DNA of 26,325 bases from a virus: IMG/VR virus record IMGVR_UViG_3300025099_000117, positions 1 through 26,325 of that record; one strand, given 5' to 3'. The first letter of the stretch is position 1. Each line of letters opens with the position of its first letter. The notes under the pieces are model-generated. The model was not told the DNA's origin. It was given only the letters and a program-made list of their open reading frames with translations, and made no database searches. Shown here piece by piece: positions 6,316-25,507 of the stretch. Both the position numbers and the translations under genes were made by a program.

Positions 6316-6344
6316 ATTATATCAAAATTTTATGCTCTTGTCAA
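6316..6344 (-). promoter_or_regulatory. Sigma-70-type promoter for the SSB-SbcCD-NrdA operon
   Basis: On the minus strand a perfect TTGACA (6344-6339) and TATAAT (6321-6316) are separated by exactly 17 nt. The spacer carries the AAATTT block seen in sister promoters. The -10 box is followed by ATAATG, so the first ATG is 3 nt away and transcription should begin near 6309, inside the annotated frame. It lies in the 52-base gap between the SF2 helicase and the operon it drives. Confidence 0.85.
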
Positions 6345-6364
6345 GCATTATTTTTCTATGGTCT

Positions 6365-7645
6365 TTATAAGGTTGAAATTTCATATCCCTGCTTTATATA
6401 GTAGCCAGTCCTAGCCGTAGCTTGTCGAGCAGCTGTTTTACCAATTAGTTGTATATCCACTACTGTAGGCTGTTGTTTGTCTGGATAATCTCGGATTACC
6501 CTACCAATTAGCTGTGTAAGTAGTGGCTCGTTATTTACTGGAGTTCCAAGTATTAAGCAACTAAGAATATCTAAAGATATACCCTCAGAGAAAATACTCT
6601 GAGTTCCAAACAGTATGTCTTTGTCGTCAAATACTTGTTTCATTATGTCTGCTCTGTCTTCGTGTGCTATGTCTCCAGTCACACAAACTGCATTATCTCC
6701 TACTAAGTTGTAACAGCTTTTTAGGAAGTCAACTCGATCAGACACTACCAATACTTTATGACCTTTTGCTGCATACGATGCTGCTGTCATAGCAATAGAA
6801 TGTTGGTACTCTGGGTTGTATGCCAGTTCATTCACTCTATTAGCCCAAGGTATTGAGTTTCCATCCATAAACCGTATTGGAAGTTTTAGGATATCAATTT
6901 TTGGGACTATATAATTCTCTTTTGGTGGTTGAAAGATGTTATCTCCAAAGTAGTCTCTGAACACAACATGTTTACCATCTTTTCTTTGCAATGTACCCGA
7001 TAGACCAATCTTATATCTAGCACAAGATTTATCTATTATTCTAGCAAAAGTCGGACTACTTACATGATGCATTTCATCTAGTATAATAGTTCCAAACTCT
7101 TGTCTTATCTGCTCAATCTTTCGGTATAAACTTTGTACATTTCCGACTACGACTGGAGCATCAATATTAAATTTACCACTGCCAATAATGCCAGGTGTAA
7201 ATCCATATACTTTTTTACATTCTGTTTCCCATTGCTTTCTTAAAGTTAAAGTATGGGTTACTACTAATGTTTTCTGTCCTAGTTTCCCAGCTATTGCTAA
7301 AGCTGTAAATGTCTTTCCCCAACTCACCCAAGCGTTAATTATACTACTGTCTTCAATTTCGTCATATACAGACTGCTGTGAAGGTCGCAAAGTAAACTTG
7401 AATGTAGGAAACTCTACAGGTTTCAAGATTCGTTTGTCTTTGATTTCATGATCTTCTGGTATTAAATCCTCTCTACCCACAGGCATAGATACCATACCTT
7501 GTTTGATCATTGCCATATTCTTAATTATAAATGGCGGGTCTCCATACTTAAATGATGGGATAGCATAAGTTAACTCAGTATCAATTTTCTTTTGTGTGTG
7601 CGGAAGCACTTCCAAATAGATTCGATTGCTGAGTACTGCTTTCAT
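6365..7645 (-). CDS. Superfamily 2 DNA helicase (T5 D10 / UvsW-like)
   Basis: This is a DEAD/DEAH-type SF2 helicase, probably remodelling branched DNA during recombination-dependent replication. Motifs: TLRPSQQSV (Q-like region, 85-93), motif I WVSWGKT (106-112), TLVVTHTLTLRKQW (Ia region), DEMH (190-193), SGTLQRKDG (motif III, 216-224), and QLIGRVIRD (motif VI) near residue 385. Motif I is divergent: the usual GxGKT is SWGKT, with serine where the first glycine of the loop is expected. The length of 426 matches phage D10-like helicases. The start overlaps the oxygenase stop by 4 bases. It is the last gene of the operon that carries the polymerase and primase. Confidence 0.9.
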   Translation of the reverse strand: MKAVLSNRIYLEVLPHTQKKIDTELTYAIPSFKYGDPPFIIKNMAMIKQGMVSMPVGREDLIPEDHEIKDKRILKPVEFPTFKFTLRPSQQSVYDEIEDSSIINAWVSWGKTFTALAIAGKLGQKTLVVTHTLTLRKQWETECKKVYGFTPGIIGSGKFNIDAPVVVGNVQSLYRKIEQIRQEFGTIILDEMHHVSSPTFARIIDKSCARYKIGLSGTLQRKDGKHVVFRDYFGDNIFQPPKENYIVPKIDILKLPIRFMDGNSIPWANRVNELAYNPEYQHSIAMTAASYAAKGHKVLVVSDRVDFLKSCYNLVGDNAVCVTGDIAHEDRADIMKQVFDDKDILFGTQSIFSEGISLDILSCLILGTPVNNEPLLTQLIGRVIRDYPDKQQPTVVDIQLIGKTAARQATARTGYYIKQGYEISTL

Positions 7646-8208
7646 GTAAAGTCAGGACCATTGTACCACTGAACTAAAGAGTATCGCATTCCGCTAGTTA
7701 CAGGCGTTACTCTATGCATTAGGGCAGAAGGAAATACAACTACTGTACCTTTCTCCATAATTTCTTGGGTAGGTTGTAATTCCATATTACCCCAATAGTT
7801 TTTGAACTGTAGTTCTCCACCTTCATAATTTTTTGGATCAGATAGTTGCACAGTTACAGATAATTTTCTATATAAGTCTGAGTCTATATCACAGTCTCTG
7901 TGCCAATCGTAAAATGCCCCCTCATAGTAGTTTGCAAACTGTAATTGTTCTTTGCCAGTTACATTAAACTTCCATCCAGTTTCAATGTTAGCAGCACCTA
8001 CATAGTCTACAACTAATTTTTCTATCCAGCAATTTTCGGGAAAGAAAGATATAAGACCTTTTCTCATATTTTCATCTCGGCTATTATCTTTATTGATAGT
8101 AGCAGGGTTTGCTATTAGTTTTGTTCCTTCTTTTATTATAAGGTCACAAACATCATCTGACAAAGCGCGAGACCAATAATAGTATGGATTACGAATAACT
8201 GTTCTCAT
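7642..8208 (-). CDS. 2-oxoglutarate/Fe(II)-dependent oxygenase (PKHD / prolyl-hydroxylase type)
   Basis: This is a non-haem iron oxygenase using 2-oxoglutarate and O2. The jelly-roll signature is complete: YDWHRDCD gives H103 and D105, PSALMHRVTPV gives H165, and R175 in MRYSLVQW would bind 2-oxoglutarate. GGELQFKNYWG and GTVVVFPS are the family's characteristic strands. The closest general class is the PKHD-type hydroxylase family common in phages; the substrate is not known and cannot be read from the sequence. It overlaps both neighbours by 4 bases (ATGA), in an operon of replication enzymes, so a protein or nucleic-acid substrate in the replisome is possible but speculative. Confidence 0.9.
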   Translation of the reverse strand: MRTVIRNPYYYWSRALSDDVCDLIIKEGTKLIANPATINKDNSRDENMRKGLISFFPENCWIEKLVVDYVGAANIETGWKFNVTGKEQLQFANYYEGAFYDWHRDCDIDSDLYRKLSVTVQLSDPKNYEGGELQFKNYWGNMELQPTQEIMEKGTVVVFPSALMHRVTPVTSGMRYSLVQWYNGPDFT

Positions 8209-8375
8209 TCCATGTCTCCATATCTGTCATTCCATACATCTTCGTAGATTATTCTAAATTCTTCTACTGTGGGAACTTCAATTTTTATTAAAGGATTAGT
8301 CTCATTAGTTTGAGCAATATCCCATACATGACTTGCATAAGCCACTAGTAATTGTTTTTCTGTGTATAAAAGCAT
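8205..8375 (-). CDS. Small hypothetical protein, 56 aa
   Basis: This is a short gene that fills the space between the oxygenase and the 68-residue protein. It has an AGGAG ribosome site 6 nt before ATG 8375, and its stop overlaps the oxygenase start by 4 bases in the ATGA arrangement used throughout this operon. The product is acidic at the C-terminus, with a VEEFRIIYEDVWNDRYGD region, and has no membrane segment. I recognise no family. The spacing and ribosome site make it very likely real. Confidence 0.72.
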   Translation of the reverse strand: MLLYTEKQLLVAYASHVWDIAQTNETNPLIKIEVPTVEEFRIIYEDVWNDRYGDME

Positions 8376-8384
8376 TGCTTTCTC

Positions 8385-8591
8385 CTATTTCATCCAGTAT
8401 CTTTTAACTGGGGGGTTAATTTCTTTTTTCTCTGCTGGGTTTCTTTTTATAAGTTTACCACACGAATAGCATGTTAAATTTATATTTAGTAACTCACATA
8501 TTGCCTCATCTTTTGGCATAGCAAAACAACTATGCGGATGAAACATTTCTGTGGGCAAAGGCCAGCCTATGTGTTTTATATCATTTTTCAT
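8385..8591 (-). CDS. Small hypothetical protein with CxxC knuckle, 68 aa
   Basis: This is a small basic protein of unknown function. It contains one CYSCGK knuckle (residues 41-46), plus an upstream HPHSCF segment near 19-24 (H19, H21, C23) that could complete a zinc site with it. The C-terminal part is rich in lysine and proline. It starts 11 bases before the end of the preceding ParB-fold gene and is followed within 10 bases by the next small gene, so it belongs to the polymerase operon. A zinc-binding or nucleic-acid-binding role is only a suggestion. Confidence 0.65.
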   Translation of the reverse strand: MKNDIKHIGWPLPTEMFHPHSCFAMPKDEAICELLNINLTCYSCGKLIKRNPAEKKEINPPVKRYWMK

Positions 8592-8976
8592 TTATTCTAA
8601 GATGAGTAGCATATGCCCACTCAATATTAGGTGCTACTATTGTTTTTAATTCATATAGTCCTAACTTTAAAGCAATGTCTATTCTTTGATTTCCGTATAC
8701 ACAAAGCCACCTTTTACATAGCCAGGGGTTTATATACTCGGTCTTAACTTGTCTTAAAGCTAGATTATAGTTGATTTGATTATTAGGAATTACTATGATT
8801 GGATTCTTAAATCCATTTTCTGCAATATTATCAAAAAGACTACTATATCCTTTTTGTTCGTTTCGTTTTCCTACTACTTGAAATATATCTATAAGTTTTA
8901 TGTTTTCAATTTCAAAAGTTTCTTCAAGAACTTTTAAATCTGAGGTTAACATATTTACTTTTATATCATTCTCCAT
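8581..8976 (-). CDS. ParB/sulfiredoxin-fold protein (first of two)
   Basis: This is a 131-residue protein with a ParB N-terminal-like (ParB/Srx) fold. The pattern is LFDNIAENGFKNPIIVI (47-63), the strand-helix core of the fold, then VYGNQRIDIALKLGL (93-107), in the place of the ParB GxRR nucleotide-binding box. It has no HTH domain, so it is not a complete partition ParB. Phages carry stand-alone ParB-fold proteins with nuclease, kinase-like or modification roles. It sits in the polymerase operon between a 160-residue unknown and a CxxC protein. A second, different member lies at 12529-13071. The activity cannot be assigned from sequence. Confidence 0.7.
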   Translation of the reverse strand: MENDIKVNMLTSDLKVLEETFEIENIKLIDIFQVVGKRNEQKGYSSLFDNIAENGFKNPIIVIPNNQINYNLALRQVKTEYINPWLCKRWLCVYGNQRIDIALKLGLYELKTIVAPNIEWAYATHLRINEK

Positions 8977-9443
8977 GTGTCTTTTTCTTTTTTACTAGAT
9001 ACATTGTACAGTACCCAAGGTATATTTTGTTTATATAAAATTCCTGCCCATGTCATATCATCAGACAAAGGTCTTTTTAAAGTAAATGGAAATACACAGT
9101 CCTTACACCATAGTATACTTACTACATCTTTTTTATCTACTTTTAAAATTTTGTGGTATTTTAACTCCACTCTTGTTGTCTTTTCTTTTAGTATAAAATA
9201 TCCAGATGAATCAATATATTGTTTACCTCTATGCATAAGTAGAGAGGGTATATCCTCTAGCATATACTTTAATGGGTATAAACTTTTCATAGGACTTTGA
9301 AGCCTTCTCATTCCAAGAGTTTTTCCTTTCATATTTCTATCATCAAGTACTTGATCTTCCACCCATAGTAATCCATCTTGCATTTCTACATTATCAGTAT
9401 GTACTACATATACTGGGAAGTCAATATTATCATAGTTCAGCAT
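8961..9443 (-). CDS. Hypothetical protein downstream of DNA polymerase, 160 aa
   Basis: I recognise no family. The protein is soluble in composition, with a pair of cysteines (WCKDC near residue 112) and several tryptophans. I chose ATG 9443, which overlaps the polymerase stop by 14 bases and has GAG a few nt upstream; the frame is open further upstream, but a longer start would add a stretch read from inside the polymerase gene. The tight coupling to the polymerase suggests co-production with the replisome. It overlaps the ParB-fold gene by 16 bases. Confidence 0.65.
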   Translation of the reverse strand: MLNYDNIDFPVYVVHTDNVEMQDGLLWVEDQVLDDRNMKGKTLGMRRLQSPMKSLYPLKYMLEDIPSLLMHRGKQYIDSSGYFILKEKTTRVELKYHKILKVDKKDVVSILWCKDCVFPFTLKRPLSDDMTWAGILYKQNIPWVLYNVSSKKEKDTWRMI

Positions 9444-11700
9444 ATTTACTCTCAAACTTGCCAAAGGAATAATCATCACCAATATCAAAATCACAACCTA
9501 CAGGGCAGCCTGGTATACTAAGTCCTCTGTCTTTTTGTACACATTCTCTAATAACCAGTTTGTATGCTTCAACTGCAGGCTCTTCGACCTCTGCTAGAAT
9601 GGAGTCATGGACAAGAGCAAATATATTTGCTTTCCATGGAGCATTCTTAACTATAGCATGAGCATCAACAGCACCTAATAAATTAATATCTGACGCCACT
9701 GATTGCACAAGAAAGTTTAGACCTGATCTAACTTCATGACTGGCAACACCTTTATTGTCAGACATTACATTAGGTAATCTTCTTTTTCTACCAAAGTAAG
9801 AATAAATAAAACCATTATCCCTAATATACTTTGATGATTGATCAATCCACTTTCTTAATTGGAAAAACTGTCTGAAGTAATCATCAATAACTTCTTGTGC
9901 TTCATTGACACTAAATCTACTTCCTGAGTCTTGTGTTACTTGTTCTGATATTTTTCTTGCACCAGCACCATACATAATCCCAAAGGTAACAGCTTTAGCA
10001 GCCTGTCGTTCTTTTGAGAAGTTGGTTGCAATATCTTCTACTTCACCTGGTAGCTGGAAAACTAACTTAGCAATATTACTATGAAAGTTACCGCCAGACT
10101 TAAATACATTCATTAATGCTTTGTCATTTGCAAGTACTGCTGCAACATACACTTCTGCTGTTGTTAAGTCCATTGCAACTATTTTGTTGCCTGGCTTAGC
10201 TTTAATACATCCTTTAACAATAGGATTATCTCTAGGTATCTGTTGCATATTCATTTTACCACTAGATGATAGTCTACCTGAAGTAGTGCCATGTAAATTA
10301 AATCCTGTACGAAGTCTACTATCTTTATCCAGCTGTGGAAGTATTTTATCTAAATAAGTATTCTTAATCTTTGACTTTTGTCTTATGCTAAGAATATGTT
10401 TAGGTATCTCGCTAGTCTCTGCTAGTTCTTTTAATACTTCTGCATTTGTAGAGTGAGCTCCTGTACCAGTCTTTACACCTGTAGGTTTTAGTCCTACAAA
10501 GTCAAACAATAACTCTCGTAATTGAACTGTACTATTTGGATTGAACTCTTTTTTCTTTATTTCTTCAAACCTTTTAACAGCATCAAACTCATATAATTCT
10601 GCTACTGATTTATCAATATCTTCTTGCATGAGTATGGTTGATTTACCTAGTCGTTCTTTATCAAAAGGTACTCCTGTATCTTGTACATCCGTTAAGAATC
10701 TGCAGCCAGGTATCAATATATTTTCGTACACGCTAAACAGCTTTGCATTTTTCTTTACTGCTGGATATAATTTAGCAAACACTAATAGTGTAACTACCGC
10801 ATCCATCGCAGCATAAATCTTCATAACATCAAAAGGTATTGAGTCCCATTGAAAATCAGCTTTTAGTACTCTGTTATTCTTTTTGTAATCATCTATCCAA
10901 TCATACATAGGTTTCTCGTAGTCACCATAAGGTGTGAACTTCATTGCTAATTGTTTTAATCCATGACTGCCAGGTACTTCATCTAAGCAATAATGCAATA
11001 ACATAGTGTCTTCGAAGTCTGGAAAAGTAAAATTGAAATGATACTCTAACATAGCTATGTCAAACTTTGCATTGTGAAATACTACTTTCTTCTTTTTAAA
11101 TATTTGATTAAACAATACTTCTGCAGTTTCGTCTATGCAGTCAGTTGCAATGTATACTCCATGGTCTCTTTGGTAAGACATACTTATACCTATTACATGA
11201 CCATCTCTAGGATATAATCCTGTGGTTTCTGTATCAACAGCAACCCATTGATTTTCATGATCTCTGGCATTGATAAGGTATCTATGTAATTCTTTTGACT
11301 CTGTAATTCCATAGACTTTTTCTTCATCTACTTTCATTACTTTCAGTTCTCCACTAATAAACTTTATAATGTTTGCTTTACTTTCTTCCCATGCTGGCTT
11401 TGCCTCTGGTTTAAAAGTAAGCATAGCAGGATTTATTACTGGTAGAAACTTATCATCTACACATCTACCACTATACTCTGTTATTGAGGTACACTTCGTA
11501 TAACTTTTTAGTGCCTCTGATCCGACTAGAATAACCCAGTCATATTCATCTGTGTCAATCTCTATGTCAACATCAGCTTTTAAAATTTTCTTTTTTGTTT
11601 TGTCAGAGCAAAGTGCGAATCTATCGAACTCAAACTCATTCTCAAAGTATCTTACGAAGTCTGTTATACTAGGCTTCGATTCAATTAGTGCTACTTTCAT
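9430..11700 (-). CDS. polA: Family A DNA polymerase with 3'-5' exonuclease
   Basis: This is the replicative DNA polymerase. Residues about 50-120 (VILVGSEALKSY ... INPAMLTFKPEAK) look like a degenerate uracil-DNA-glycosylase-fold domain of the type fused to some phage family A polymerases. The proofreading exonuclease shows VDTETTGL (D156, E158), HNAKFD (N210, D214) and YAAMD (D300). The polymerase core has HGTTSGRLSS (470-479), motif A AMDLTTAEVYVAA (D511, E516), motif B RQAAKAVTFGIMYG (R565, K569, Y577) and motif C ALVHDS (H698, D699). The position equal to E. coli F762 is phenylalanine (F573). There is no 5'-3' nuclease domain; that is the gene at 666-1529. Length 756. It overlaps the primase stop by 20 bases. 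Confidence 0.96.
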   Translation of the reverse strand: MKVALIESKPSITDFVRYFENEFEFDRFALCSDKTKKKILKADVDIEIDTDEYDWVILVGSEALKSYTKCTSITEYSGRCVDDKFLPVINPAMLTFKPEAKPAWEESKANIIKFISGELKVMKVDEEKVYGITESKELHRYLINARDHENQWVAVDTETTGLYPRDGHVIGISMSYQRDHGVYIATDCIDETAEVLFNQIFKKKKVVFHNAKFDIAMLEYHFNFTFPDFEDTMLLHYCLDEVPGSHGLKQLAMKFTPYGDYEKPMYDWIDDYKKNNRVLKADFQWDSIPFDVMKIYAAMDAVVTLLVFAKLYPAVKKNAKLFSVYENILIPGCRFLTDVQDTGVPFDKERLGKSTILMQEDIDKSVAELYEFDAVKRFEEIKKKEFNPNSTVQLRELLFDFVGLKPTGVKTGTGAHSTNAEVLKELAETSEIPKHILSIRQKSKIKNTYLDKILPQLDKDSRLRTGFNLHGTTSGRLSSSGKMNMQQIPRDNPIVKGCIKAKPGNKIVAMDLTTAEVYVAAVLANDKALMNVFKSGGNFHSNIAKLVFQLPGEVEDIATNFSKERQAAKAVTFGIMYGAGARKISEQVTQDSGSRFSVNEAQEVIDDYFRQFFQLRKWIDQSSKYIRDNGFIYSYFGRKRRLPNVMSDNKGVASHEVRSGLNFLVQSVASDINLLGAVDAHAIVKNAPWKANIFALVHDSILAEVEEPAVEAYKLVIRECVQKDRGLSIPGCPVGCDFDIGDDYSFGKFESKYAEL

Positions 11701-15479: not shown

Positions 15480-16247
15480 TTATTTTCCTATAATTTCTTT
15501 TAAGTTTGTTATTATTATAACACCCCGTTCTCGGGCTGTCTGTGTCTTTGCGGACTCTATACCGCTTTCATTGACTAGAATTGATACATCTTTAGTCAAA
15601 CTACTTTTAACAAGATAGCCCAGTTTTTCTAATAGTTCTGTTGCTTGAGCCTTTGTCTTGTAGCTTTTTAGTCTGCCAGAGATACACACCACTCCTTTAT
15701 TCTCTGTGGGTTTTGATACTTTAAGTATCTGTGCCCACTTAAACGGAAGTTTGCTATATCCATTGATAAACTCGTCATAATACCAGTCCAATAAATGTTC
15801 TGTTGCTACTGGTCCGAGTCCTGCTTCTTTACAAGTTTCCTCATTAAGTTCTCCCATGTTACGAATAACAGAGCAGATTTTTGCAGAAGCAGATCGACCA
15901 ATTAGTTTGATTGAGAAAGCTGGTAGTAAGTCGATTAGATCGGTAGCTTTACTACTTATGATTTCTCTGTGCAGTTTTACTGCAAGTTTTTCGGATTGCA
16001 ATGCCTCTATCATTATTTCAAGAGTCAATTCATAAATATCATAAATACTTGTAATCTGTAGTTTTTCTACTGTTGCTGGTCCGAGACCTTTTATTCTGAG
16101 AGTCTTAGCAAAATGCTCAACTTTCTTACTTGTCTTACCCTCACAGGCAGTGTTCTCGCAGAACAGTTGATCGTTTCTCCACACTAACTCTATACTACAA
16201 GTAGGACAGTGTGTTGGTGGCGATATTTGTTTAAAATTGTCTCTCAT
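15480..16247 (-). CDS. NAD+-dependent DNA ligase, C-terminal subunit (Zn finger, HhH, BRCT)
   Basis: This is the DNA-binding half of a split LigA. C14, C17, C30 and C35 form the ligase zinc finger (HCPTCSIEL ... FCENTAC), then helix-hairpin-helix repeats (LRIKGLGPATVEKL, KLIGRSASAKI, AGLGPVATEHLL), and a BRCT domain from about residue 180 (GVVCISGRLKSYKTKAQATELL). The catalytic half is the separate gene at 16756-17706. Phage T5 also encodes its NAD+ ligase as two polypeptides; here two other genes lie between the halves, and this gene has its own promoter (16265-16293) with a predicted leader of only about 11 nt containing AAAAAAGAA. The two proteins should associate to form one ligase. Confidence 0.9.
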   Translation of the reverse strand: MRDNFKQISPPTHCPTCSIELVWRNDQLFCENTACEGKTSKKVEHFAKTLRIKGLGPATVEKLQITSIYDIYELTLEIMIEALQSEKLAVKLHREIISSKATDLIDLLPAFSIKLIGRSASAKICSVIRNMGELNEETCKEAGLGPVATEHLLDWYYDEFINGYSKLPFKWAQILKVSKPTENKGVVCISGRLKSYKTKAQATELLEKLGYLVKSSLTKDVSILVNESGIESAKTQTARERGVIIITNLKEIIGK

Positions 16248-16264: not shown

Positions 16265-16293
16265 ATTATATCAAATTTGGGTTGCCATGTCAA
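16265..16293 (-). promoter_or_regulatory. Sigma-70-type promoter for the ligase C-half and replisome operon
   Basis: Perfect TTGACA (16293-16288) and TATAAT (16270-16265) on the minus strand are 17 nt apart, with AAATTTG next to the -10 box. The -35 box overlaps the stop codon of the GIY-YIG-like gene, showing how tightly the units are packed. Transcription should start near 16258, 11 nt before the ATG of the ligase C-terminal half. Confidence 0.87.
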
Positions 16294-16655: not shown

Positions 16656-16759
16656 AACTCAACCCACCAGCGCAGTAGCATTACTACTATAGTAATACAT
16701 ATTACACCAATGATGGGGGTTGAATATAAGTCAAGCAAGGCTAATACTTGTCTAATCAA
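16652..16759 (-). CDS. Single-pass membrane microprotein, 35 aa, TTG start
   Basis: This is a very short gene nested exactly between the ligase catalytic half and the GIY-YIG-like gene. An excellent AAGGAG ribosome site inside the ligase gene lies 6 nt before a TTG that overlaps the ligase stop codon, and the reading frame ends at a TGA that overlaps the GTG of the next gene. The product has a short amphipathic start (LIRQVLALLDLY) and one hydrophobic segment (PIIGVICITIVVMLL) followed by RWWVEL. The precise tiling makes it a credible gene. Function is unknown; a membrane anchor or host-interaction peptide is possible. A 7-bp inverted repeat (ATTACTA/TAGTAAT) lies inside it. Confidence 0.6.
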   Translation of the reverse strand: MIRQVLALLDLYSTPIIGVICITIVVMLLRWWVEL

Positions 16760-17706
16760 TCTATTCTCCTTACAATTTTAGGGATAATTTCTCCACTACG
16801 GATTACTTCAACTGTACAACCTATTTCTAGTCGTAAGTCGCTTATATATCTCATGTTATGTAAGGTTGCTCTACTAACATTAGCACCATCAATTTCTACA
16901 GGTTCTAAAATAGCTGTAGGAGCAACTACACCTGACTTACCAACATTCCATACCACATCCAATAGTTTAGTGTCAACGCCAGTCTGTATAGACTTTAGAG
17001 CGAAAGCACCTCTAGGGTGGTGTGAAGTATAACCCATTCTTTCAAAATCAGTATAGTTATCCACTCGGAAGACTACACCGTCATCTGGAAACTCAGACCA
17101 TTGAGACTCGATTACAGTATTAAAACCTTGATGGCTTAGCATACCTAAATCTGTTGTCAACATATCTGACATTGCGGGTTGCACTCCATATACAATAAAT
17201 GTGAGTTCTCTAGTTTTGAACTCCTCTGGATCTTTCAAGTTAAGTGCTCCTGCAGCATAGTTGCGAGCGTTCTTAATTGACTTTGGAGCAACTACTTCAC
17301 CAGTTATCTGTTGTACTGAAGCGTGGGGAACAATGTACTCGGGAACTATGTTTATCATTAACTTAGTAATATCTAGTCCTTTTGTACCATCTCCTCGAGT
17401 CAATGCTCGGTGAAGTAAGCCGTCAATATAAAGCAATGAAACCGCTGCTCCATCAAGTTTAGGAGAAACAACTGTTGCTCCCTTATAATCATTTAATGGA
17501 TTTTTATCGACTTCATTAGTAAAAACTTTCTGAAGTGAATACATTGGAAAAGCATGAGGAGTTCGATTATCTCGACTGTTAAAGCCGACTTCATCGAACT
17601 CAGCAACTCTTGCTAACTGGTCAAACTCTTTGTCTGACATAGTGGGGTTACCCTCATAGTATGCAGTAGCCGCGTCTCTCAATATTGCTTTTATATTTTT
17701 TGTCAT
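16756..17706 (-). CDS. NAD+-dependent DNA ligase, catalytic subunit (Ia, adenylation, OB fold)
   Basis: This is the catalytic half of a split LigA. The Ia domain motif AYYEGNPTMSDKEFDQL (15-31) binds NAD+. The adenylation domain has SPKLDGAAVSLLY with the adenylated lysine K83, RGDGTKGLDIT, TGEVV, DGVVFRVD and RGAFALK. The OB fold follows (VGKSGVVAPTAILEPVEIDG ... ATLHN ... VEVIRSGEIIPKI). It ends where a full LigA would enter the zinc finger, which is encoded separately at 15480-16247. The ATG at 17706 starts 6 nt after a TATAAT, so the mRNA is predicted to begin on the start codon (leaderless). Confidence 0.94.
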   Translation of the reverse strand: MTKNIKAILRDAATAYYEGNPTMSDKEFDQLARVAEFDEVGFNSRDNRTPHAFPMYSLQKVFTNEVDKNPLNDYKGATVVSPKLDGAAVSLLYIDGLLHRALTRGDGTKGLDITKLMINIVPEYIVPHASVQQITGEVVAPKSIKNARNYAAGALNLKDPEEFKTRELTFIVYGVQPAMSDMLTTDLGMLSHQGFNTVIESQWSEFPDDGVVFRVDNYTDFERMGYTSHHPRGAFALKSIQTGVDTKLLDVVWNVGKSGVVAPTAILEPVEIDGANVSRATLHNMRYISDLRLEIGCTVEVIRSGEIIPKIVRRID

Positions 17707-17712
17707 TTATAT

Positions 17713-17741
17713 ATTATACTAAATTTATAAACTCATGTCAA
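17713..17741 (-). promoter_or_regulatory. Leaderless sigma-70-type promoter for the ligase catalytic half
   Basis: TTGACA (17741-17736), 17 nt, TATAAT (17718-17713) on the minus strand, with AAATTT in the spacer. ATATAA follows the -10 box and then the ATG of the ligase gene, so the expected +1 is the A of the start codon at 17706. No Shine-Dalgarno site could be present in such an mRNA. Confidence 0.87.
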
Positions 17742-18378: not shown

Positions 18379-18822
18379 TTAGCTATTCATGTTTCCAATG
18401 ATAGTATTAAAGTAAACTGCAGCTTTACCTGTTAGTTTGCTGATGATGTCCATGTCAATCTCTTGACCAGCATCAGTTAGAGAAGCTACTAGGTCGTCTT
18501 GTGCGCCCTGTTTGCTAACTCTAGGTGTTGAAGATTTTGCACTAGATGATCCACCGCTTGAAGGAGTTTTCTTAACATACACTCCTGCTTTAGTAAGAAT
18601 CATACGAACGCCATTTGGTGATTCACCAATCTCGTCTGCAATTTCTTTTACAATCTCCATACTTGTTTCTGGAGTTGGTTCTTGTTCAGTATACATCTCT
18701 ACTGCTTGAGCTTTTTTGTCGTCATCCCACGCCATTTTTCTACCTCGTTTTCTATAGTATTCTGGAAGCCCAAGTGCAAAGCCTGTGCGTTCCCGTTGTT
18801 GTTGATAAAATCTATCTCCCAT
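18379..18822 (-). CDS. SANT/HTH-like DNA-binding protein, single repeat
   Basis: The core (WDDDKKAQAVEMYTEQEPT ... EIVKEIADEIGESPNGVRMILTKAGVYVKK) is a helix-turn-helix unit very like the repeats of the 240-residue protein at 14755-15477. A low-complexity serine linker and a C-terminal helical part follow. Two starts are possible. ATG 18822 begins 7 nt after the -10 box, giving a leaderless mRNA and an N-terminal MGDRFYQQQRERTG segment. ATG 18735 has GAGG ahead and begins directly at the HTH unit. I report the longer one because it fits the leaderless pattern of the sister promoters; both may be used. An even earlier ATG lies inside the promoter and is excluded. Confidence 0.75.
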   Translation of the reverse strand: MGDRFYQQQRERTGFALGLPEYYRKRGRKMAWDDDKKAQAVEMYTEQEPTPETSMEIVKEIADEIGESPNGVRMILTKAGVYVKKTPSSGGSSSAKSSTPRVSKQGAQDDLVASLTDAGQEIDMDIISKLTGKAAVYFNTIIGNMNS

Positions 18823-18829: not shown

Positions 18830-18858
18830 ATTATACAGAAATTTAGATTATAAGTCAA
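18830..18858 (-). promoter_or_regulatory. Leaderless sigma-70-type promoter for the HTH-PC4 operon
   Basis: TTGACT (18858-18853), 17 nt, TATAAT (18835-18830) on the minus strand, with AAATTTCTG against the -10 box. The next ATG begins 7 nt after the -10 box (18822), so +1 falls at or one base before the start codon. Confidence 0.85.
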
Positions 18859-19334: not shown

Positions 19335-19344
19335 TGTTTACTCC

Positions 19345-20338: not shown

Positions 20339-20637
20339 GATTTATCCACATACATTTGGTCATCATACTCATAGTCCTCTTTCTCTAGTTGTCCTATTAA
20401 TATGATTGCATAATGAATAACTTTGAATAAATCTTCTGTGTTCTTGCCGTCTTTCTTTCCAAAACGCTGTGCGTATTTGATAATATTACCAATACAAAAA
20501 CCTTCTCCATGCCCGTTCTCAAATACTATCTCTGTTGTTTGAGTCTTTGCTTGGGCATAGTGCTGGTCATAGGTAAAGTCTATATACTTTTTTAGTTCTT
20601 CAACTACTTTGTTTTCGTTAAATTTATACTGTATCAT
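20335..20637 (-). CDS. DUF3310-like protein
   Basis: The 100-residue protein contains GFCIGNIIKYAQRFGKKDGKNTEDLFKVIHYAIILI (47-82), the core of the DUF3310 family of small phage proteins, often annotated as nucleotide-kinase-like without firm proof. The pattern is Y/F-C-x-G-N-x-IKY-x-x-R-[FY] followed by K-x-G and a second helix. In this window it lies near a MazG-like gene, which suggests a nucleotide-metabolism setting. It has ATGA overlaps on both sides. Confidence 0.8.
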   Translation of the reverse strand: MIQYKFNENKVVEELKKYIDFTYDQHYAQAKTQTTEIVFENGHGEGFCIGNIIKYAQRFGKKDGKNTEDLFKVIHYAIILIGQLEKEDYEYDDQMYVDKS

Positions 20638-20813
20638 TTTTGTCTTTTCTTCACCCAGTCATTCCATCTTTGCTCACAATACTCTGTAAAGGCAAGGAAT
20701 GATTCACTTTGTAATAAAAAATTAATTCCAAACCAATAGGCTGCTATACTAAATATGTACTTACCTATTGAATATGGGAAAAGCAATATTTGATGTAAAA
20801 AATCAATCATCAT
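20634..20813 (-). CDS. Small membrane protein, 59 aa
   Basis: This gene begins with two consecutive ATGs (20813 and 20810) behind an AGGAG site; the second has the better spacing. The product has a hydrophobic first half (FLHQILLFPYSIGKYIFSIA, then YWFGINFLL) and a charged tail (YCEQRWNDWVKKRQK). Its start overlaps the stop of the neighbouring membrane microprotein, and its stop overlaps the DUF3310-like start by 4 bases. Function unknown. Confidence 0.65.
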   Translation of the reverse strand: MMIDFLHQILLFPYSIGKYIFSIAAYWFGINFLLQSESFLAFTEYCEQRWNDWVKKRQK

Positions 20814-20974
20814 TTGTCTCCTGTTAACAGGGCTACAAATATAAGTAAAAGTATAAAGCCTGCTAAATTATTCAGTGTATATAAAACTGTTGGCATAAAG
20901 TTAAAACCTAGTAATACACTAGCTACTGTAACTAAGCCAAATACACCTGCTATGAAGTGTGCTATTGCTTTCAT
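20810..20974 (-). CDS. Two-helix membrane microprotein, 54 aa
   Basis: The product has two hydrophobic helices (IAHFIAGVFGLVTVASVLLG and LAGFILLLIFVALL) joined by a short FNFMPTVLYTLNN turn, with almost no soluble part. The ATG shares a base with the MazG stop (TAATG), and the end overlaps the start of the 59-residue membrane protein. Two adjacent tiny membrane proteins may act together; a holin-like role is possible but the lysozyme is in a different operon. Confidence 0.65.
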   Translation of the reverse strand: MKAIAHFIAGVFGLVTVASVLLGFNFMPTVLYTLNNLAGFILLLIFVALLTGDK

Positions 20975-21399
20975 TATATGTCTCCGTCTTTGCGTACTTC
21001 ACTACGCACTGCTTCAAATCCGTTAGGGTATCTACTCTCGAGTTTACTAATATTTTCTTGCATTACTTCTTGTGGAGTGTACCCTAACGCGGTGCAACCT
21101 TGAACCCAATACCACAGGACATCGCCTAGCTCTCGCTTTAAGTGGTATCGTTGATCGCCGTTGAATGGTTTACCTTGAAATATAATCTTTTTGATTACTT
21201 CTGAGAACTCTCCTGATTCAGCTTGCATACCGATTGATGCTGTGAGTAGCTGTGAAAATTCTGTCAAGGGGTGGTCTAAAGAAAGATTAACTAGCTTTTC
21301 GCATAGTTTTACTGTATCTAAACTTTCTTCAGATGTTGTGCTGACTACAAACTTTGCGTAGTCATTAAAATTTGTTTGTTGTGTGTCTGGTATATACAT
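20974..21399 (-). CDS. MazG-like nucleotide pyrophosphohydrolase
   Basis: This is an all-alpha NTP pyrophosphohydrolase. The metal-binding pattern is SIGMQAESGEFSEVIKK (E61, E64, E67) and HLKRELGDVLWYWVQG (E90, D93), followed by the TALGYTPQEVMQENISKLESRYPNGF helix that ends many MazG-type proteins. Members hydrolyse dNTPs or modified NTPs, and phage copies have been proposed to lower host ppGpp or cleanse the pool. Length 141 fits a single-domain MazG. GAGAACAAACA precedes the ATG. It is the third gene after the promoter at 22112-22140. Confidence 0.9.
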   Translation of the reverse strand: MYIPDTQQTNFNDYAKFVVSTTSEESLDTVKLCEKLVNLSLDHPLTEFSQLLTASIGMQAESGEFSEVIKKIIFQGKPFNGDQRYHLKRELGDVLWYWVQGCTALGYTPQEVMQENISKLESRYPNGFEAVRSEVRKDGDI

Positions 21400-21411
21400 T
21401 GTTTGTTCTCG

Positions 21412-21531
21412 TTAATGTGTTAAATTTCGTTCCGAATACCATTTGGACAACCAAATGTCTATTTCTTCTTGTGTCCAATTACTCGGAAAGTATACTGCTA
21501 TATAAGGACTATCTTGTAATACGACTCTCAT
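21412..21531 (-). CDS. Small hypothetical protein, 39 aa
   Basis: This is a short reading frame that fills the gap between the leaderless gene at 21509-22105 and MazG. It overlaps the upstream gene by 23 bases and ends 12 bases before the MazG start. The product (SPYIAVYFPSNWTQEEIDIW segment) has a protein-like composition with no membrane helix. The ribosome site is weak (GAGGAC, too far upstream), so translation may depend on coupling. Function unknown; moderate confidence that it is a gene. Confidence 0.5.
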   Translation of the reverse strand: MRVVLQDSPYIAVYFPSNWTQEEIDIWLSKWYSERNLTH

Positions 21532-22105
21532 AGTCTGCATAGTCCTCGTTCCACCAGTGTGGTTTATCCCTAAACTTCCAACTTGCAAAGGTTGCTTTAT
21601 CTAAATGGTAATAATCTCTATATGATTGTATAGGATTATCATAGTCTTTCAACTCGTCTGGCATTGCCAATCCAAATTGTGTAAAGCCTAACCTTTCCAT
21701 ATGTTGTGGTTCGGGTAATTTATTTACTACTTGTGCTATGGACTTATGTTCTTTGCCATATCTGTATCTATACTCGTCATTCAATGCATTGCCATAGCAA
21801 TGTGTCCACTCATGATTGTCCAATGATGACCTAGCCCATATAGTACATGGGTGGTTATACATCATTGGTAAATAAGGTGTGATTGGTCTATCTTCTGGAA
21901 GTAGGTGTTTGATTTTAGATTTTTCTTCATTCAAAACATCTCTTTCTTCTTTATTCAAAGCTCTAGGAACAAACCCTAGAAACTTATCTACCCATATGCT
22001 AGTGCATAGTATCTGTGCTACTTCGAGAGGCATTTTGACAATATGTTTGTCAACATGGTACTCGGCACACTTGTCTAGATTTTCGTCTAAGTAAAATAAA
22101 TTCAT
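21509..22105 (-). CDS. Conserved phage protein of unknown function, leaderless
   Basis: The N-terminus, MNLFYLDENLDKCAEYHVDK followed by HIVKMPLEVAQIL, is a pattern I recall from many marine phage hypotheticals, where the histidine- and lysine-rich helix is well conserved. Some relatives may be labelled pyrimidine-dimer-glycosylase-like, but I cannot confirm that here. The rest is rich in histidine and aromatic residues (MYNHPCTIWARSSLDNHEWTH; KPHWWNEDY). The ATG at 22105 starts 6 nt after TATAAT, so the mRNA should begin on the start codon. It is the first gene of a nine-kilobase-side operon of small genes that includes MazG and DUF3310. Confidence 0.78.
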   Translation of the reverse strand: MNLFYLDENLDKCAEYHVDKHIVKMPLEVAQILCTSIWVDKFLGFVPRALNKEERDVLNEEKSKIKHLLPEDRPITPYLPMMYNHPCTIWARSSLDNHEWTHCYGNALNDEYRYRYGKEHKSIAQVVNKLPEPQHMERLGFTQFGLAMPDELKDYDNPIQSYRDYYHLDKATFASWKFRDKPHWWNEDYADYESRITR

Positions 22106-22111
22106 AAGTAT

Positions 22112-22140
22112 ATTATACAGAAATTATGAGGAGATGTCAA
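22112..22140 (-). promoter_or_regulatory. Leaderless sigma-70-type promoter for the MazG operon
   Basis: Perfect TTGACA (22140-22135) and TATAAT (22117-22112), 17 nt apart, on the minus strand, with AATTTCTG against the -10 box. ATACTT and then ATG follow, putting +1 on the start codon at 22105. The -35 box overlaps the stop codon of the glutaredoxin gene. Confidence 0.88.
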
Positions 22141-22397
22141 GTACTATTTTTAGGTTTCCTGAAAAGTGGTTCAAATTCTGTATAACCACCTATTTTTTCT
22201 CCATCAACAATAATTTGAGGAAAAGTTCTAGCAGTAGGAAATATATGCATCATATCATCCATGTTAAAGTCAACACCTAGTTTTTTGACTGTGTACTCTT
22301 GTAAGCCACATTCTCCAAATTGAAACTGTTGTGCTAATCTTACTGCTTTATCACAGAAAGGACAATTATCTTTGCTATATATTTCTACTGTTTTCAT
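22137..22397 (-). CDS. Glutaredoxin
   Basis: This is a thioredoxin-fold dithiol glutaredoxin. The active site is C12-P-F-C15 in SKDNCPFCDKA, the cis-proline segment is ARTFPQIIVDG, and IGGYTEF closes the glutathione site. It is 86 residues, the normal size. In phages it commonly supplies electrons to ribonucleotide reductase, and an nrdA gene lies at the left edge of this window; it could also serve the peroxiredoxin. Its start directly abuts the stop of the holin-like gene, and it is the last gene of the hsp20-lysis operon. Confidence 0.93.
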   Translation of the reverse strand: MKTVEIYSKDNCPFCDKAVRLAQQFQFGECGLQEYTVKKLGVDFNMDDMMHIFPTARTFPQIIVDGEKIGGYTEFEPLFRKPKNST

Positions 22398-22775
22398 TTA
22401 TTTACTATTAATTTTATCTTTTGCTGTACCTGCATAGAGTCCAAACCAAGCTGCGCCTGCTCCGACCACTATAGATATCAACCCTGACTGTTCTAATGTG
22501 GGTACATCTAGTTCCATAAACCAAAATGTACAGTAGTATAGTAAATACATATATACACTTAGGAAGGCTCTAGGAAAAATACGCCAAGAATCTATCATTT
22601 GAGAAAACCATATAGCTTTCTGCCATGGATTGTCTGGCTCTCTTTCGTTCTCCATCTCCATGATGGTTTGCTTTAGTTCCCCTATTTCAGAAACCATTGC
22701 CATGAATTTATTTAGGTCTATTTCAACCTCGTTTCGGCTCATGTCGCCTTGAAATTGCTCGCTAGGTTGTGCCAT
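22398..22775 (-). CDS. Two-helix membrane protein, holin-like
   Basis: A soluble helical N-terminus (VEIDLNKFMAMVSEIGELKQ, then a run of acidic residues) is followed by two hydrophobic helices (FLSVYMYLLYYCTFWFMEL and GLISIVVGAGAAWFGLYAG) and a short charged tail. Two transmembrane helices downstream of a lysozyme gene that lacks a signal sequence make it the best holin candidate in the window, though the N-terminal domain is longer than in most small holins. I chose ATG 22775 with GGAG 10 nt upstream; a GTG at 22799 is possible but has no ribosome site. Confidence 0.65.
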   Translation of the reverse strand: MAQPSEQFQGDMSRNEVEIDLNKFMAMVSEIGELKQTIMEMENEREPDNPWQKAIWFSQMIDSWRIFPRAFLSVYMYLLYYCTFWFMELDVPTLEQSGLISIVVGAGAAWFGLYAGTAKDKINSK

Positions 22776-22914
22776 GCTCAATTTTCTCCAATTTTTCACG
22801 AAGCAGTATTAACTCATCTTCGTAGCTTTGCCATAGTGAAGGACTCTTAGTTAACTGTTGGTTTTCTTCGAGTACTTTTATGGCGACCTTAAGATTATTT
22901 ATTCTAGGACTCAC
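22762..22914 (-). CDS. Small coiled-coil protein, 50 aa, GTG start
   Basis: This short frame fills the gap between the 69-residue gene and the holin-like gene. The product is a heptad-rich helix (NNLKVAIKVLEENQQLTK ... YEDELILLREKLEKIE). The GTG start at 22914 overlaps the previous stop, and the end overlaps the holin-like start by 14 bases while containing its GGAG site. No strong ribosome site is seen for the GTG itself, so coupled translation is likely. Function unknown. Confidence 0.55.
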   Translation of the reverse strand: MSPRINNLKVAIKVLEENQQLTKSPSLWQSYEDELILLREKLEKIEHGTT

Positions 22915-23113
22915 GGAGAATATCTTTTATCCATTTATTCTCTATTGAATCTATATCTAAAGGTGTTGTGTCGGAGGATATTATCCTACTAGGGCTGTTT
23001 TGAAACATGACTTTATCATTATAATCATAAATGTCATCTACCCATTCTCCGACATCTTCATTGTCGAGTTCTATTATTAACTCAATTCTATGTACTTGTT
23101 TTGTGTTTGCCAT
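22904..23113 (-). CDS. Small hypothetical protein, 69 aa
   Basis: This is an acidic soluble protein with a beta-strand-like RIELIIELDNEDVGEW segment and a DIDSIENKWIKDIL helix at the end. AGGAAAAA precedes the ATG. It overlaps the coiled-coil gene upstream by 37 bases. No family is recognised. Confidence 0.62.
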   Translation of the reverse strand: MANTKQVHRIELIIELDNEDVGEWVDDIYDYNDKVMFQNSPSRIISSDTTPLDIDSIENKWIKDILRES

Positions 23114-23295
23114 TTTTTCCTTTTAGTTTTTAACTTAGCATATTTAACATACGCTCTATATTTAGCTTCTTGTTCTTCCTTTACAGAAGTTTTCAGTACT
23201 TTAATTGTGGATTTTAAACTGTTTATTTCATTCTGTTGTTCACAGATTATCAGTCTTAGCTGTTCCTCCAGCGTGTTGTTGAGGTTCTGATTCAT
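23077..23295 (-). CDS. Coiled-coil protein, up to 72 aa
   Basis: This is a lysine- and glutamate-rich helix over most of its length (LEEQLRLIICEQQNEINSLK ... EEQEAKYRAYVKYAKLKTKRKKW), predicted to form a coiled coil. It overlaps the upstream gene by 56 bases and the downstream gene by 37 bases in other frames, which is unusually much, so the true start may be further inside. No ribosome site precedes ATG 23295. The position near the lysis genes raises the possibility of a spanin-type function, but no membrane helix or lipobox is present. Confidence 0.5.
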   Translation of the reverse strand: MNQNLNNTLEEQLRLIICEQQNEINSLKSTIKVLKTSVKEEQEAKYRAYVKYAKLKTKRKKWQTQNKYIELS

Positions 23296-23425
23296 TTTTA
23301 AGTTTGGTAAATGCTTCAGCTATGTACTCTGTCATGTCCATACCCCACTCAGCGGCTTGTATATTCATGGCATCCCACATATCTTGTGTGATATTATAAG
23401 TCTGACCTTCGAATTTAATTTCCAC
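23240..23425 (-). CDS. Small hypothetical protein after lysozyme, 61 aa
   Basis: I recognise no family. The product (IKFEGQTYNITQDMWDAMNI, then MTEYIAEAFTKLKNE) looks like a short strand pair plus two helices. GTG 23425 is preferred because it overlaps the lysozyme stop by only 11 bases and has GAGG upstream; a TTG at 23470 would overlap lysozyme by 56 bases. The C-terminal tail is polar and low-complexity. Confidence 0.55.
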   Translation of the reverse strand: MEIKFEGQTYNITQDMWDAMNIQAAEWGMDMTEYIAEAFTKLKNESEPQQHAGGTAKTDNL

Positions 23426-23843
23426 TAAATAGATCAGCCTCGGCTTGTCGTCTGCGAGTAAGTCCTTCAAGAACTTTTCCGCCTGCTTTGTTCCATCTCA
23501 TTATCTGTGCTGGAACTTCATCATAACTTCCTGCATTTAACACTTTCAAAAGTGTACTTGCTGCAAGATTGCCTGCACCTAGATTGAATACCCATGATAC
23601 TAATGCATCAAATTCGTTTTGCTCTAAAGGCACAGCTACATACTTATGTATATAGTTTTCATACTCCTCTAGTTCATGTACTAACATGGACTCGGCTTCT
23701 TCTTGAGTGATGGTATCACCCATCTTTACACCTTTAATGTGTCCGTACCCGATTGTAGGTACTCCAGCAGCACAATGATATGCTTCTAGTTCACACCCTT
23801 CAAAGTGTTTAATTAAATCTATTCCTTTACTACTTATATTCAT
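23415..23843 (-). CDS. Lysozyme / endolysin (T4-type muramidase, GH24)
   Basis: This is the cell-wall hydrolase for host lysis. The family's catalytic triad is present as E15-(8)-C24-(5)-T30: KHFEGCELEAYHCAAGVPTIGYGH. Cysteine in the second position, instead of aspartate, occurs in some phage lysozymes such as that of P1. WVFNLGAGNLAASTLL and LTRRRQAEADLF are conserved C-terminal blocks. The length is 142 residues. There is no signal peptide or SAR anchor, so export should need a holin. AGGAAACGA precedes ATG 23843; the frame is open further upstream, but that part overlaps the Fe-S carrier gene. Confidence 0.93.
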   Translation of the reverse strand: MNISSKGIDLIKHFEGCELEAYHCAAGVPTIGYGHIKGVKMGDTITQEEAESMLVHELEEYENYIHKYVAVPLEQNEFDALVSWVFNLGAGNLAASTLLKVLNAGSYDEVPAQIMRWNKAGGKVLEGLTRRRQAEADLFSGN

Positions 23844-23850
23844 TCGTTTC

Positions 23851-24153
23851 CTATATGTAAAAACTTTCTCCGCATCCACAGCGACCAGTTTCTTGTTCAT
23901 TAACGATATGAAATGACTCACTAAAATCATCAGTTTTCCAATCCAATATCGCATCTGTTAAATATTTATTACTTAGTATGTCTACTACTAAGATTTCTTG
24001 ATATACTATATCAGTTAAATCATGATTTTCGGCATGGCTTAACTCATATGTATAACCACCACAACCACCGCCACTCACTTTCAAGCGAGCGCCCCAAGGG
24101 TTTGAGGCGACTCTCCTTTTTAAGTGTTCTAGTGCGGTGGACGTGATTTGCAC
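23851..24153 (-). CDS. A-type iron-sulfur cluster carrier (IscA/ErpA/HesB family)
   Basis: This is a 100-residue Fe-S carrier. The three cluster-binding cysteines are in place: C31 in SGGGCGGYTYEL and C92, C94 in GRCGCGESF. The fold's middle segment is shorter but the spacing is that of A-type proteins. It could mature or protect Fe-S enzymes of the host during infection. The start is GTG 24153, at the usual distance from the conserved core; the ribosome site is weak. It lies between a membrane microprotein and lysozyme, in the hsp20 operon, and fits the stress theme of that operon. Confidence 0.92.
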   Translation of the reverse strand: MQITSTALEHLKRRVASNPWGARLKVSGGGCGGYTYELSHAENHDLTDIVYQEILVVDILSNKYLTDAILDWKTDDFSESFHIVNEQETGRCGCGESFYI

Positions 24154-24158
24154 TATGG

Positions 24159-24260
24159 TTAGGTTATTGCCACAATGGAACTTAGAAAAAGACTGATTAA
24201 TACAATCAATTCAAATTGTTGTTTTACTACTAAAAGTGTTAATCTTGTTCTTGCTCTCAT
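24159..24260 (-). CDS. Membrane microprotein between hsp20 and Fe-S carrier, 33 aa
   Basis: A short frame with a basic N-terminus (RARTRLTLLVVKQQ) and one hydrophobic helix (FELIVLISLFLSSIVAIT). AAGAAGAG lies just before ATG 24260; an in-frame GTG at 24281 would overlap nothing and add 7 residues. The frame fills the gap exactly and ends 6 bases before the Fe-S carrier start. Only the frame, ribosome site and composition support it. Confidence 0.45.
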   Translation of the reverse strand: MRARTRLTLLVVKQQFELIVLISLFLSSIVAIT

Positions 24261-24282
24261 TGCTCTTCTTATAACGCCCACG

Positions 24283-24711
24283 CTAACCTATGTTTATGCT
24301 TTTGGGTTTTTCAGCTTCAGGTGTGTTTACCACTAGATTTATAACAAGCATTCCGTCCTTGAATACTGCCTCATCTACTTCCACCCAACTGCCTAGAGAA
24401 AATTCTCTTGTGAAAGGTTTTCCACTTAATCCTTTATGGATATAGCTTTCTTCCTCGTTTGTTTCCAACTTAGTTGTACCCTCAATGGTGAGTGTATTCT
24501 TTCGCTGGGTCACCTCGATATTTTCTTTTGACCAGCCAGGCAAAGCCATCTCTATTCGATATGCTTCATCGCCTACTGATACTAGATTATATCTAGGGTA
24601 ATTTGTCAATGGGTTATTAGCAACCCTGTTTGATAAGTCTCGGTTGAGACGATCGAATCCGACAAACAATTTGTCGAAATCGCTAAAATTTAAATGCTGT
24701 ACTACAGTCAT
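24283..24711 (-). CDS. Small heat shock protein (Hsp20/IbpA-like)
   Basis: This is an ATP-independent holdase. The alpha-crystallin domain spans about residues 42-135: YNLVSVGDEAYRIEMALPGW, IEVTQRKNTLTIEG, FTREFSLGSWVEVDEAVFKDGMLVINL, and a C-terminal SINIG in the place of the I-x-I/V anchor motif. The length is 142, as for bacterial IbpA. AGGAG precedes the ATG. It is the first gene after a 223-nt hairpin-rich leader, so its expression may be controlled by RNA structure, as is known for IbpA-type genes in bacteria through RNA thermometers. Phage copies probably protect capsid or host proteins during infection. Confidence 0.94.
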   Translation of the reverse strand: MTVVQHLNFSDFDKLFVGFDRLNRDLSNRVANNPLTNYPRYNLVSVGDEAYRIEMALPGWSKENIEVTQRKNTLTIEGTTKLETNEEESYIHKGLSGKPFTREFSLGSWVEVDEAVFKDGMLVINLVVNTPEAEKPKSINIG

Positions 24712-24934
24712 CTTCTTCTCCTATATCGCACCCTCATGGTGTGCGTCTATGAACTCCTTTCGGTAGTTCGGGTTAATATTGTATGCCTAACAAACCCGAC
24801 CATTGGTGGAAATGGTACTCCTAACCTCGCCCTCGGAAAGCTGTGTTTCCTACTCGTGCCAGACATATGTAGGTGTTGTTATGGCAGTGCCTACAACTGC
24901 GCTTAATTCGTCAAGTGAATTTAAAATCTCACTT
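24712..24934 (-). ncRNA. Structured 5' leader RNA of hsp20 (candidate cis-regulatory RNA)
   Basis: From the predicted +1 at 24934, the RNA begins on a hairpin (AAGTGA/TCACTT, 24934-24913). Then come TGTAGG/CCTACA (24895-24868), GGAAA/TTTCC (24850-24835), ACCATT/AATGGT (24816-24799), CGGGTT/AACCCG (24798-24769), GAACTaCCGAAAGGAGTTC with a GAAA tetraloop (24769-24751) and CGCAC/GTGCG (24745-24727), which ends next to the ribosome site. Seven stems in 223 nt are more than expected by chance. Known candidates are the manA and wcaG RNA motifs of marine phages; manA RNAs are reported upstream of ibpA chaperone genes. This assignment is a hypothesis. Confidence 0.62.
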
Positions 24935-24940
24935 ATGTAT

Positions 24941-24969
24941 ATTATAACAAAAAAATACCACCTTGTCAA
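24941..24969 (-). promoter_or_regulatory. Sigma-70-type promoter for the structured hsp20 leader
   Basis: Perfect TTGACA (24969-24964) and TATAAT (24946-24941), 17 nt apart, on the minus strand. ATACAT then AAGTGA follow, so +1 is near 24934 and no ATG lies at the start. Unlike the leaderless sister promoters, this one makes a 223-nt RNA before the first gene. Confidence 0.88.
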
Positions 24970-24979
24970 CAACTATTTT

Positions 24980-25120
24980 TCAGTCGTCAAAGTCTATCTG
25001 CCCATCTTCTTTTAAGAAATCCAATGTCCTAGATATCCAATACTGTTTTGTAGCATGGTAAGTTATATGCACCGCGGCTACAAGAATTATTATGTATGAG
25101 AGGTCTATTTGCCAATCCAT
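24980..25120 (-). CDS. Single-pass membrane microprotein, 46 aa
   Basis: An AGGAG site lies 7 nt before ATG 25120, and the start overlaps the end of the 92-residue gene by 16 bases. The product has one hydrophobic N-terminal helix (LSYIIILVAAVHI) and a charged cytoplasmic tail (FLKEDGQIDFDD). It ends 11 bases before the -35 box of the hsp20 promoter. Function unknown. Confidence 0.65.
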   Translation of the reverse strand: MDWQIDLSYIIILVAAVHITYHATKQYWISRTLDFLKEDGQIDFDD

Positions 25121-25383
25121 TCTACATCTCCTCGTGGTATCACTTGATACGCACCTTTGTTATAGGCGGGAGCAACTGTAAACTTCTTACTTTCTTCCAG
25201 TTTCCAACTATTGTCTTTCGCTGGAGCGTACCCTGTAGATTTATAACTAGGTATCTCTGTAGATTTACTACTGATAGTTTTTGTACTCTGTGCTACAAAG
25301 TCTGGTCTTTTTGCTTTCTTCCATGCATTAGTTTTTCGCTTGCGTCCACTCGGGCTATGCCTCATGCTTCCTCGTACTATCAT
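25105..25383 (-). CDS. Basic hypothetical protein, 92 aa
   Basis: The N-terminal third is strongly basic (RHSPSGRKRKTNAWKKAKR), the middle is serine- and threonine-rich, and the C-terminus has a KFTVAPAYNKGAYQVI and DVEWIGK part that looks conserved. AGGAG precedes ATG 25383. It may bind nucleic acid. It is the first real gene after the promoter at 25419-25447, although that transcript begins with an ATG-TAA pair (see findings). Confidence 0.68.
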   Translation of the reverse strand: MIVRGSMRHSPSGRKRKTNAWKKAKRPDFVAQSTKTISSKSTEIPSYKSTGYAPAKDNSWKLEESKKFTVAPAYNKGAYQVIPRGDVEWIGK

Positions 25384-25418
25384 AAATTTGTCTCCTATAA
25401 AATAATTTACATATGTAT

Positions 25419-25447
25419 ATTATACAGGAATATTCACCGAAAGTCAA
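25419..25447 (-). promoter_or_regulatory. Sigma-70-type promoter, leftward arm of the divergent pair
   Basis: TTGACT (25447-25442), 17 nt, TATAAT (25424-25419) on the minus strand. ATACAT and then ATG TAA follow, so the predicted transcript begins with a start codon directly followed by a stop. The gene proper starts at 25383 with its own AGGAG site. The -35 box lies only 31 bases from the rightward -35 box. Confidence 0.82.
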
Positions 25448-25478
25448 GTAAAATTCGAACCACTCCTAAAAATAGTTC

Positions 25479-25507
25479 TTGACTTCTACTTAAGAATTTG
25501 CTATAAT
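25479..25507 (+). promoter_or_regulatory. Leaderless sigma-70-type promoter for the SANT-bS21 operon
   Basis: TTGACT (25479-25484), 17 nt, TATAAT (25502-25507), with AATTTG near the -10 box. ACACAT and then ATG follow, so +1 falls on the A of the start codon at 25514. It is the only rightward promoter of the leaderless type and is back-to-back with the leftward one. Confidence 0.86.

Follow-up and report, generated by a model that had tools for sequence, protein, structure and literature searches.

Does a message carry a leader at all when the start codon of its first gene lies where transcription is expected to begin? The question is raised by the virus fragment IMG/VR record IMGVR_UViG_3300025099_000117 (26.3 kb, 36% GC; the window, meaning the whole stretch analysed), in which four genes start 6-7 nt past the -10 box of very similar promoters. 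Judged by its sequence, the window covers the early genes of a marine T5-like phage that has not been cultured. Its DNA polymerase is ~44% identical to the polymerases of T5-like phages, and its gene order is that of coliphage T5 (D3, ligA, ligB, D5, D6, primase, polymerase, D10, D12, D13, flap nuclease). The replication module typical of Demerecviridae, with a split NAD ligase, a PolA-type polymerase and other genes in T5 order, is present on this 26-kb fragment of early-region genes. The relatives of the window are of metagenomic origin.

T5-type promoters of the early region

The window contains eight strict TTGACW-N17-TATAAT sites, as against a mean of 0.05 and a maximum of 1 in dinucleotide shuffles, and a ninth site, at 25970-25998 (+), is a TTGCAT-17-TATAAT variant (Table 1). 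The original prediction of nine promoters sharing TTGACA/T (one TTGCAT), a 17-nt spacer and TATAAT is thereby borne out, as is that of AATTT in most spacers, which is found at spacer positions 10-15 in six of the nine. The proposed TATAATA(T/C)A at the -10 edge needs one correction, at 18830 (-), where the sequence reads TATAATATT. The eight strict sites show the 17-18 nt spacing between -35 and TATAAT that characterizes T5-type promoters, and the A/T-rich upstream tract and spacer AATTT of T5-type early promoters are present as well.

T5 itself has promoters at the matching loci: N26 before D3, one before ligA, K28a before ligB and P31A/B after D10. The T5 early promoters (among them N25, N26, K28a and P31A/B) resemble those of the window in their 17-18 nt spacers with an AATTT-like element, TATAAT, the ATATT/ATATA discriminator and the A-rich tract upstream. 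They differ in the more frequent use of TTGCT -35 boxes, where the window has TTGACA/T, and in the leaders, mostly bearing a Shine-Dalgarno (SD) site, that precede ligA, ligB, D2 and D3, many of which are absent in the window's branch. Sharing of the ATATT discriminator among T5 early promoters, and their temporal classes, have been described (PMC7472727). By motif, the promoters of the window belong to the T5 early type, and they occupy loci that T5 uses as well (D3, ligA, ligB and after D10). Nine cultured T5-like phages (four from Vibrio or marine sources) also have leaders at these promoters, mostly with an SD site; the -10-to-ATG distance is typically 25-31 nt, and the lone 7-nt case is a 43-codon ORF.

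Table 1. T5-type promoters of the window and the genes that follow them (distances are counted in nt between the -10 box and the ATG).
Feature	Coordinates	Strand	Remarks
T5-type early promoter, TTGACA-17-TATAAT	17713..17741	-	ligA start 17706 at 6 nt, the predicted +1; orthologous to T5 ligA promoter
ligA, NAD-dependent DNA ligase subunit A, predicted leaderless	16756..17706	-	Pfam DNA_ligase_aden/OB, phrog_3359; 42% identity to T5 LigA
T5-type promoter, TTGACT-17-TATAAT	18830..18858	-	start 18822 at 7 nt; position orthologous to T5 promoter N26 before D3
D3-like DNA-binding protein, predicted leaderless	18379..18822	-	phrog_1725; 48% identical to T5 D3 from residue 41
T5-type promoter, TTGACA-17-TATAAT	22112..22140	-	start 22105 at 6 nt
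Pyr_excise/phrog_624 DNA-binding protein, MNLFYLDENLDKC..., predicted leaderless	21509..22105	-	15/24 relatives at 6-7 nt
T5-type promoter, TTGACT-17-TATAAT	25479..25507	+	start 25514 at 6 nt; divergent from 25419-25447
Small HTH/SANT-like protein, 54 aa, D5-related, predicted leaderless	25514..25678	+	phrog_323, D5-like; 8/9 relatives at 6 nt
T5-type promoter before ligB	16265..16293	-	start 16247 at 17 nt; leader ~11 nt, no SD
ligB, NAD-dependent DNA ligase subunit B	15480..16247	-	phrog_3498
T5-type promoter after D10 helicase gene	6316..6344	-	ATG 6312 at 3 nt, upstream of predicted +1
phrog_4258 protein, start codon overlapping promoter	5914..6312	-	
T5-type promoter with start-stop ATG TAA	25419..25447	-	ATG TAA at 25412-25407, exactly at predicted +1
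T5-type promoter before Hsp20 gene at 24711	24941..24969	-	leader ~225 nt; no ATG near +1
TTGCAT-17-TATAAT promoter	25970..25998	+	T5-like initial sequence ATATACATAAATTGATAA, cf. T5 P31A/B; ATA at +1, no start codon

Start codons at the predicted transcription start

The four first-gene starts noted at the outset (17706, 18822, 22105 and 25514) lie as close to the -10 box as had been claimed, within the 6-8 nt expected of leaderless genes, and lack an SD site; the starts at 16247 and 6312 fall outside this range. In the window, a strict promoter followed by an ATG at exactly 6 nt occurs four times (17706, 22105, 25514 and 25412) and in none of 100 shuffles. At the T5 promoter N25, transcription begins with the seventh base past TATAAT, where the ATGs of the window lie as well. 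Since the start codons lie exactly at the expected transcription start, the messages probably have no leader.

The same spacing is seen among relatives, in a survey of 201 viral loci with 436 distinct strict promoters, with 2308 TATAAT boxes lacking a -35 as control. The sample is partly unbiased, as 120 of the DNA stretches were retrieved with a pattern that covers only the upstream and core promoter elements and ignores the ATG. An ATG stands 6 nt past the -10 box at 19.7% of the promoters and at 1.1% of the control boxes, so that the enrichment of 6-7 nt distances, proposed with the original prediction as its own test, is found at about 18-fold for 6 nt. A further 6.7% have the ATG at 7 nt and 5.3% at 8 nt, and distances of 4, 5 and 9 nt are nearly empty. 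When similar promoters are clustered, the distances are bimodal (79 starts at 6-8 nt, 80 at 18-30 nt), and an SD core precedes 4% of the former vs 75% of the latter. The share of starts at 6-8 nt varies by orthologue: 33/49 for ligA, 22/45 for D3, 15/24 for the 22105 family, 14/35 for the polymerase, 8/9 for the small HTH gene and 1/62 for ligB. One and the same orthologue is found both leadered and at 6-8 nt, and gene trees (FastTree) imply at least four switches between the two states in ligA, at least three in the polymerase and at least three in D3, for which the alignments are short. Diverged LigA proteins retain the 6-8 nt state, and two records of 88-91 kb hold several such starts apiece. 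A pyrimidine at -1, which a transcription start would lead one to expect, is slightly commoner than at leadered starts, though not significantly (p=0.12).

These observations are best explained by leaderless transcription of ligA, D3, the 22105 gene, the small HTH gene and, in relatives, the DNA polymerase gene, a reading that we consider highly probable on the strength of sequence comparison. The promoters would be read by the host sigma70 RNA polymerase through an AAAAATA UP-like tract, TTGACA/T, a 17-nt spacer in which AATTT and an extended -10 are frequent, and TATAAT. Initiation 7-9 nt past the -10 box would make the 5' end of the mRNA the AUG itself or a base 1-2 nt before it, and ribosomes would start on this 5'-terminal AUG without an SD site, by leaderless initiation. 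The start codon of the first gene would have moved repeatedly onto the transcription start in the uncultured marine T5-like branch. Several T5 promoters have ATA(A) where the window has ATG, one base away, and a single A-to-G change in a T5-like ATAAAT would yield an AUG at +1, possibly an easy evolutionary path. The sequences themselves show the promoters, the bimodal spacing, the loss of SD sites, the conservation and the repeated switching; the precise +1, translation without a leader and a possible benefit are inferred.

Alternatively, the start codons at +1 might be translated mainly from longer transcripts that read through from upstream and thus carry a leader lacking an SD site, the overlap with the promoter being due to compaction only. 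Nearly all genes at these promoters do sit in a long same-strand array, with one exception, and the ATG at 6312, upstream of +1 in almost all relatives, needs such transcripts. However, compaction by itself predicts neither the sharp 6-8 nt peak, with starts at 9-19 nt scarce or missing in ligA, the polymerase and the 22105 family, nor the complementary loss of the SD site, and the excepted gene, at 25514, is transcribed divergently and has, as far as the window shows, no gene on its own strand directly upstream; we regard this account as unlikely.

Far less probable still is that the ATG at +1 belongs to a promoter or initial-transcribed-sequence motif and that translation starts further downstream. 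The ATG-TAA at +1 of 25412, the T5 ATA(A) at the corresponding place and the T5 D3 homologue, which begins ~30 codons further in, would suit such a motif. However, LigA and the 22105 family align with their homologues from the first residues, leadered D3 relatives, whose start codon follows an SD site, share the initial MSDRF/MGDRF residues, and family promoters with leaders have no fixed ATN at +1. Moreover, substitutions favour third codon positions from codon 2 onward, directly after these ATGs, which are therefore very probably translated starts. A chance origin of the ATGs after -10 boxes in AT-rich sequence, for which the 36% GC of the genome would speak, is refuted by the shuffle and TATAAT controls.

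The D3-like protein has a conserved 29-residue N-terminal extension (MGDRFYQQQ...), kept in relatives and absent from T5 D3. An internal ATG of this gene, with GAGGT upstream, lies where T5 D3 starts, which would allow for two products. Identity of the 22105 gene with T5.105 was considered and rejected, as there is no convincing match.

Known leaderless genes and the hosts

Bacterial leaderless genes are generally recognized by a -10-like box ~12 bp ahead of the start codon, and are rarely detected in gamma-Proteobacteria (15/239 genomes; PMC3160421); the first point speaks for the leaderless reading, the second against it. The TA-led genes of that survey resemble those described here in the box ~12 bp upstream and the missing SD site, and differ in that they come from cellular genomes, few of them in gamma-Proteobacteria (PMC3160421). 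In PY54 cI/cro and lambda cI, a strong sigma70 promoter likewise places the transcription start on the AUG, a position determined by RACE for PY54 (PMC4488713) and predicted by spacing here; those are single regulatory genes of temperate phages, whereas in the T5-like lineage several genes of replication and DNA metabolism are concerned. Cluster O mycobacteriophages also have several SigA-like promoters with the predicted +1 at the first codon, but infect actinobacteria, in which leaderless genes are common (PMC4351075), whereas the T5-likes described here probably have Gram-negative marine hosts. No paper joining T5 and leaderless mRNAs was found in the open-access literature. The comparisons support regarding the present case as a putative lineage-wide form of the leaderless phage mRNA, itself a known arrangement, built on T5-type promoters that are likewise known.

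In Gram-negative bacteria, the leaderless messages known from phages are mainly single cases such as lambda cI and PY54 cI/cro; here a whole lineage appears to convert classic T5 promoters repeatedly for core replication genes, whose orthologues in sister phages are SD-led. Such natural pairs of leadered and leaderless genes offer a test of why a leader is gained or lost and of whether infection favours leaderless initiation. The arrangement also matters for annotation, as gene callers that expect an SD site can misplace such starts.

With respect to the host, a first-pass search of bacterial genome contigs with the window polymerase gave no match. A profile scan found relatives 63-65% identical in contigs of marine MAGs assigned to Porticoccaceae, Halieaceae, Parcubacteria and Bacteroidetes; MAG binning errors are likely, so that gammaproteobacterial hosts are only a hint. 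The early region also holds peroxiredoxin, Hsp20 and glutaredoxin-like genes (4768-5271, 24283-24711 and 22137-22397, respectively), which are not listed in the T5 segment viewed and are probably stress-related auxiliary genes; the relatives of the peroxiredoxin in phages gave no host signal. In five loci (L144, L203, L165, L331, L333), an ATG 6-7 nt past the -10 box also precedes a gene with the N-terminal motif SPEGLE(V/I)A outside the early region, and leaderless starts may extend to further classes of genes or groups of phages.

Promoters that depart from the spacing

The claim that the first genes of this promoter family are leaderless agrees with the spacing, the complementary SD pattern and the conservation, and appears to hold for only part of the family, with 16247, 6312, 25412 and 24941 deviating. 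The accompanying statement that downstream genes keep normal SD sites is true of about half of the other genes; many lack one, and some of them overlap the preceding gene. For ligB, the spacing agrees with the predicted leader of about 11 nt, and starts in relatives are mostly 12-30 nt past the -10 box.

The ATG of the phrog_4258 gene after D10 lies at -2 to +3 from the -10 end in 67/72 distinct relatives (uncultured, e.g. L112, L099, L110, L212), and in Vibrio and Proteus T5-likes it lies 19-28 nt downstream of the -10 box, behind a normal leader. As the ATG at 6312 is upstream of +1, a transcript from the gene's own promoter should lack the start codon, and its message would most simply come from transcripts reading through from D10. 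T5 has no ATG at the equivalent place. There the N-terminal part seems to extend from an ATT codon preceded by GAGGAG, and the annotated T5.125 may therefore be truncated. A broader view, which we find rather doubtful, is that two initiation modes would stand side by side in the early programme, leaderless for first genes (ligase, polymerase, DNA-binding regulators) and SD-led for the others, with the mode tuned by selection and the promoter after D10 starting inside its first gene, which would be made only from read-through.

The start-stop at 25407-25412 (-) lies 23 nt before an SD-led gene at 25383. The Hsp20 leader (24712-24940, -) opens with a hairpin (AAGTGA...TTCACTT) that is conserved, as well as a GCGCAGT-like stretch, and L139, L179 and L326 are similar. 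A small RNA or a leader that responds to heat is conceivable here; the folding is not significant (z -1.4), and an Rfam search of the window found no known RNA. The variant site at 25970 reads TATAATATATACATAAATTGATAA, nearly the initial sequence of T5 P31A/B.
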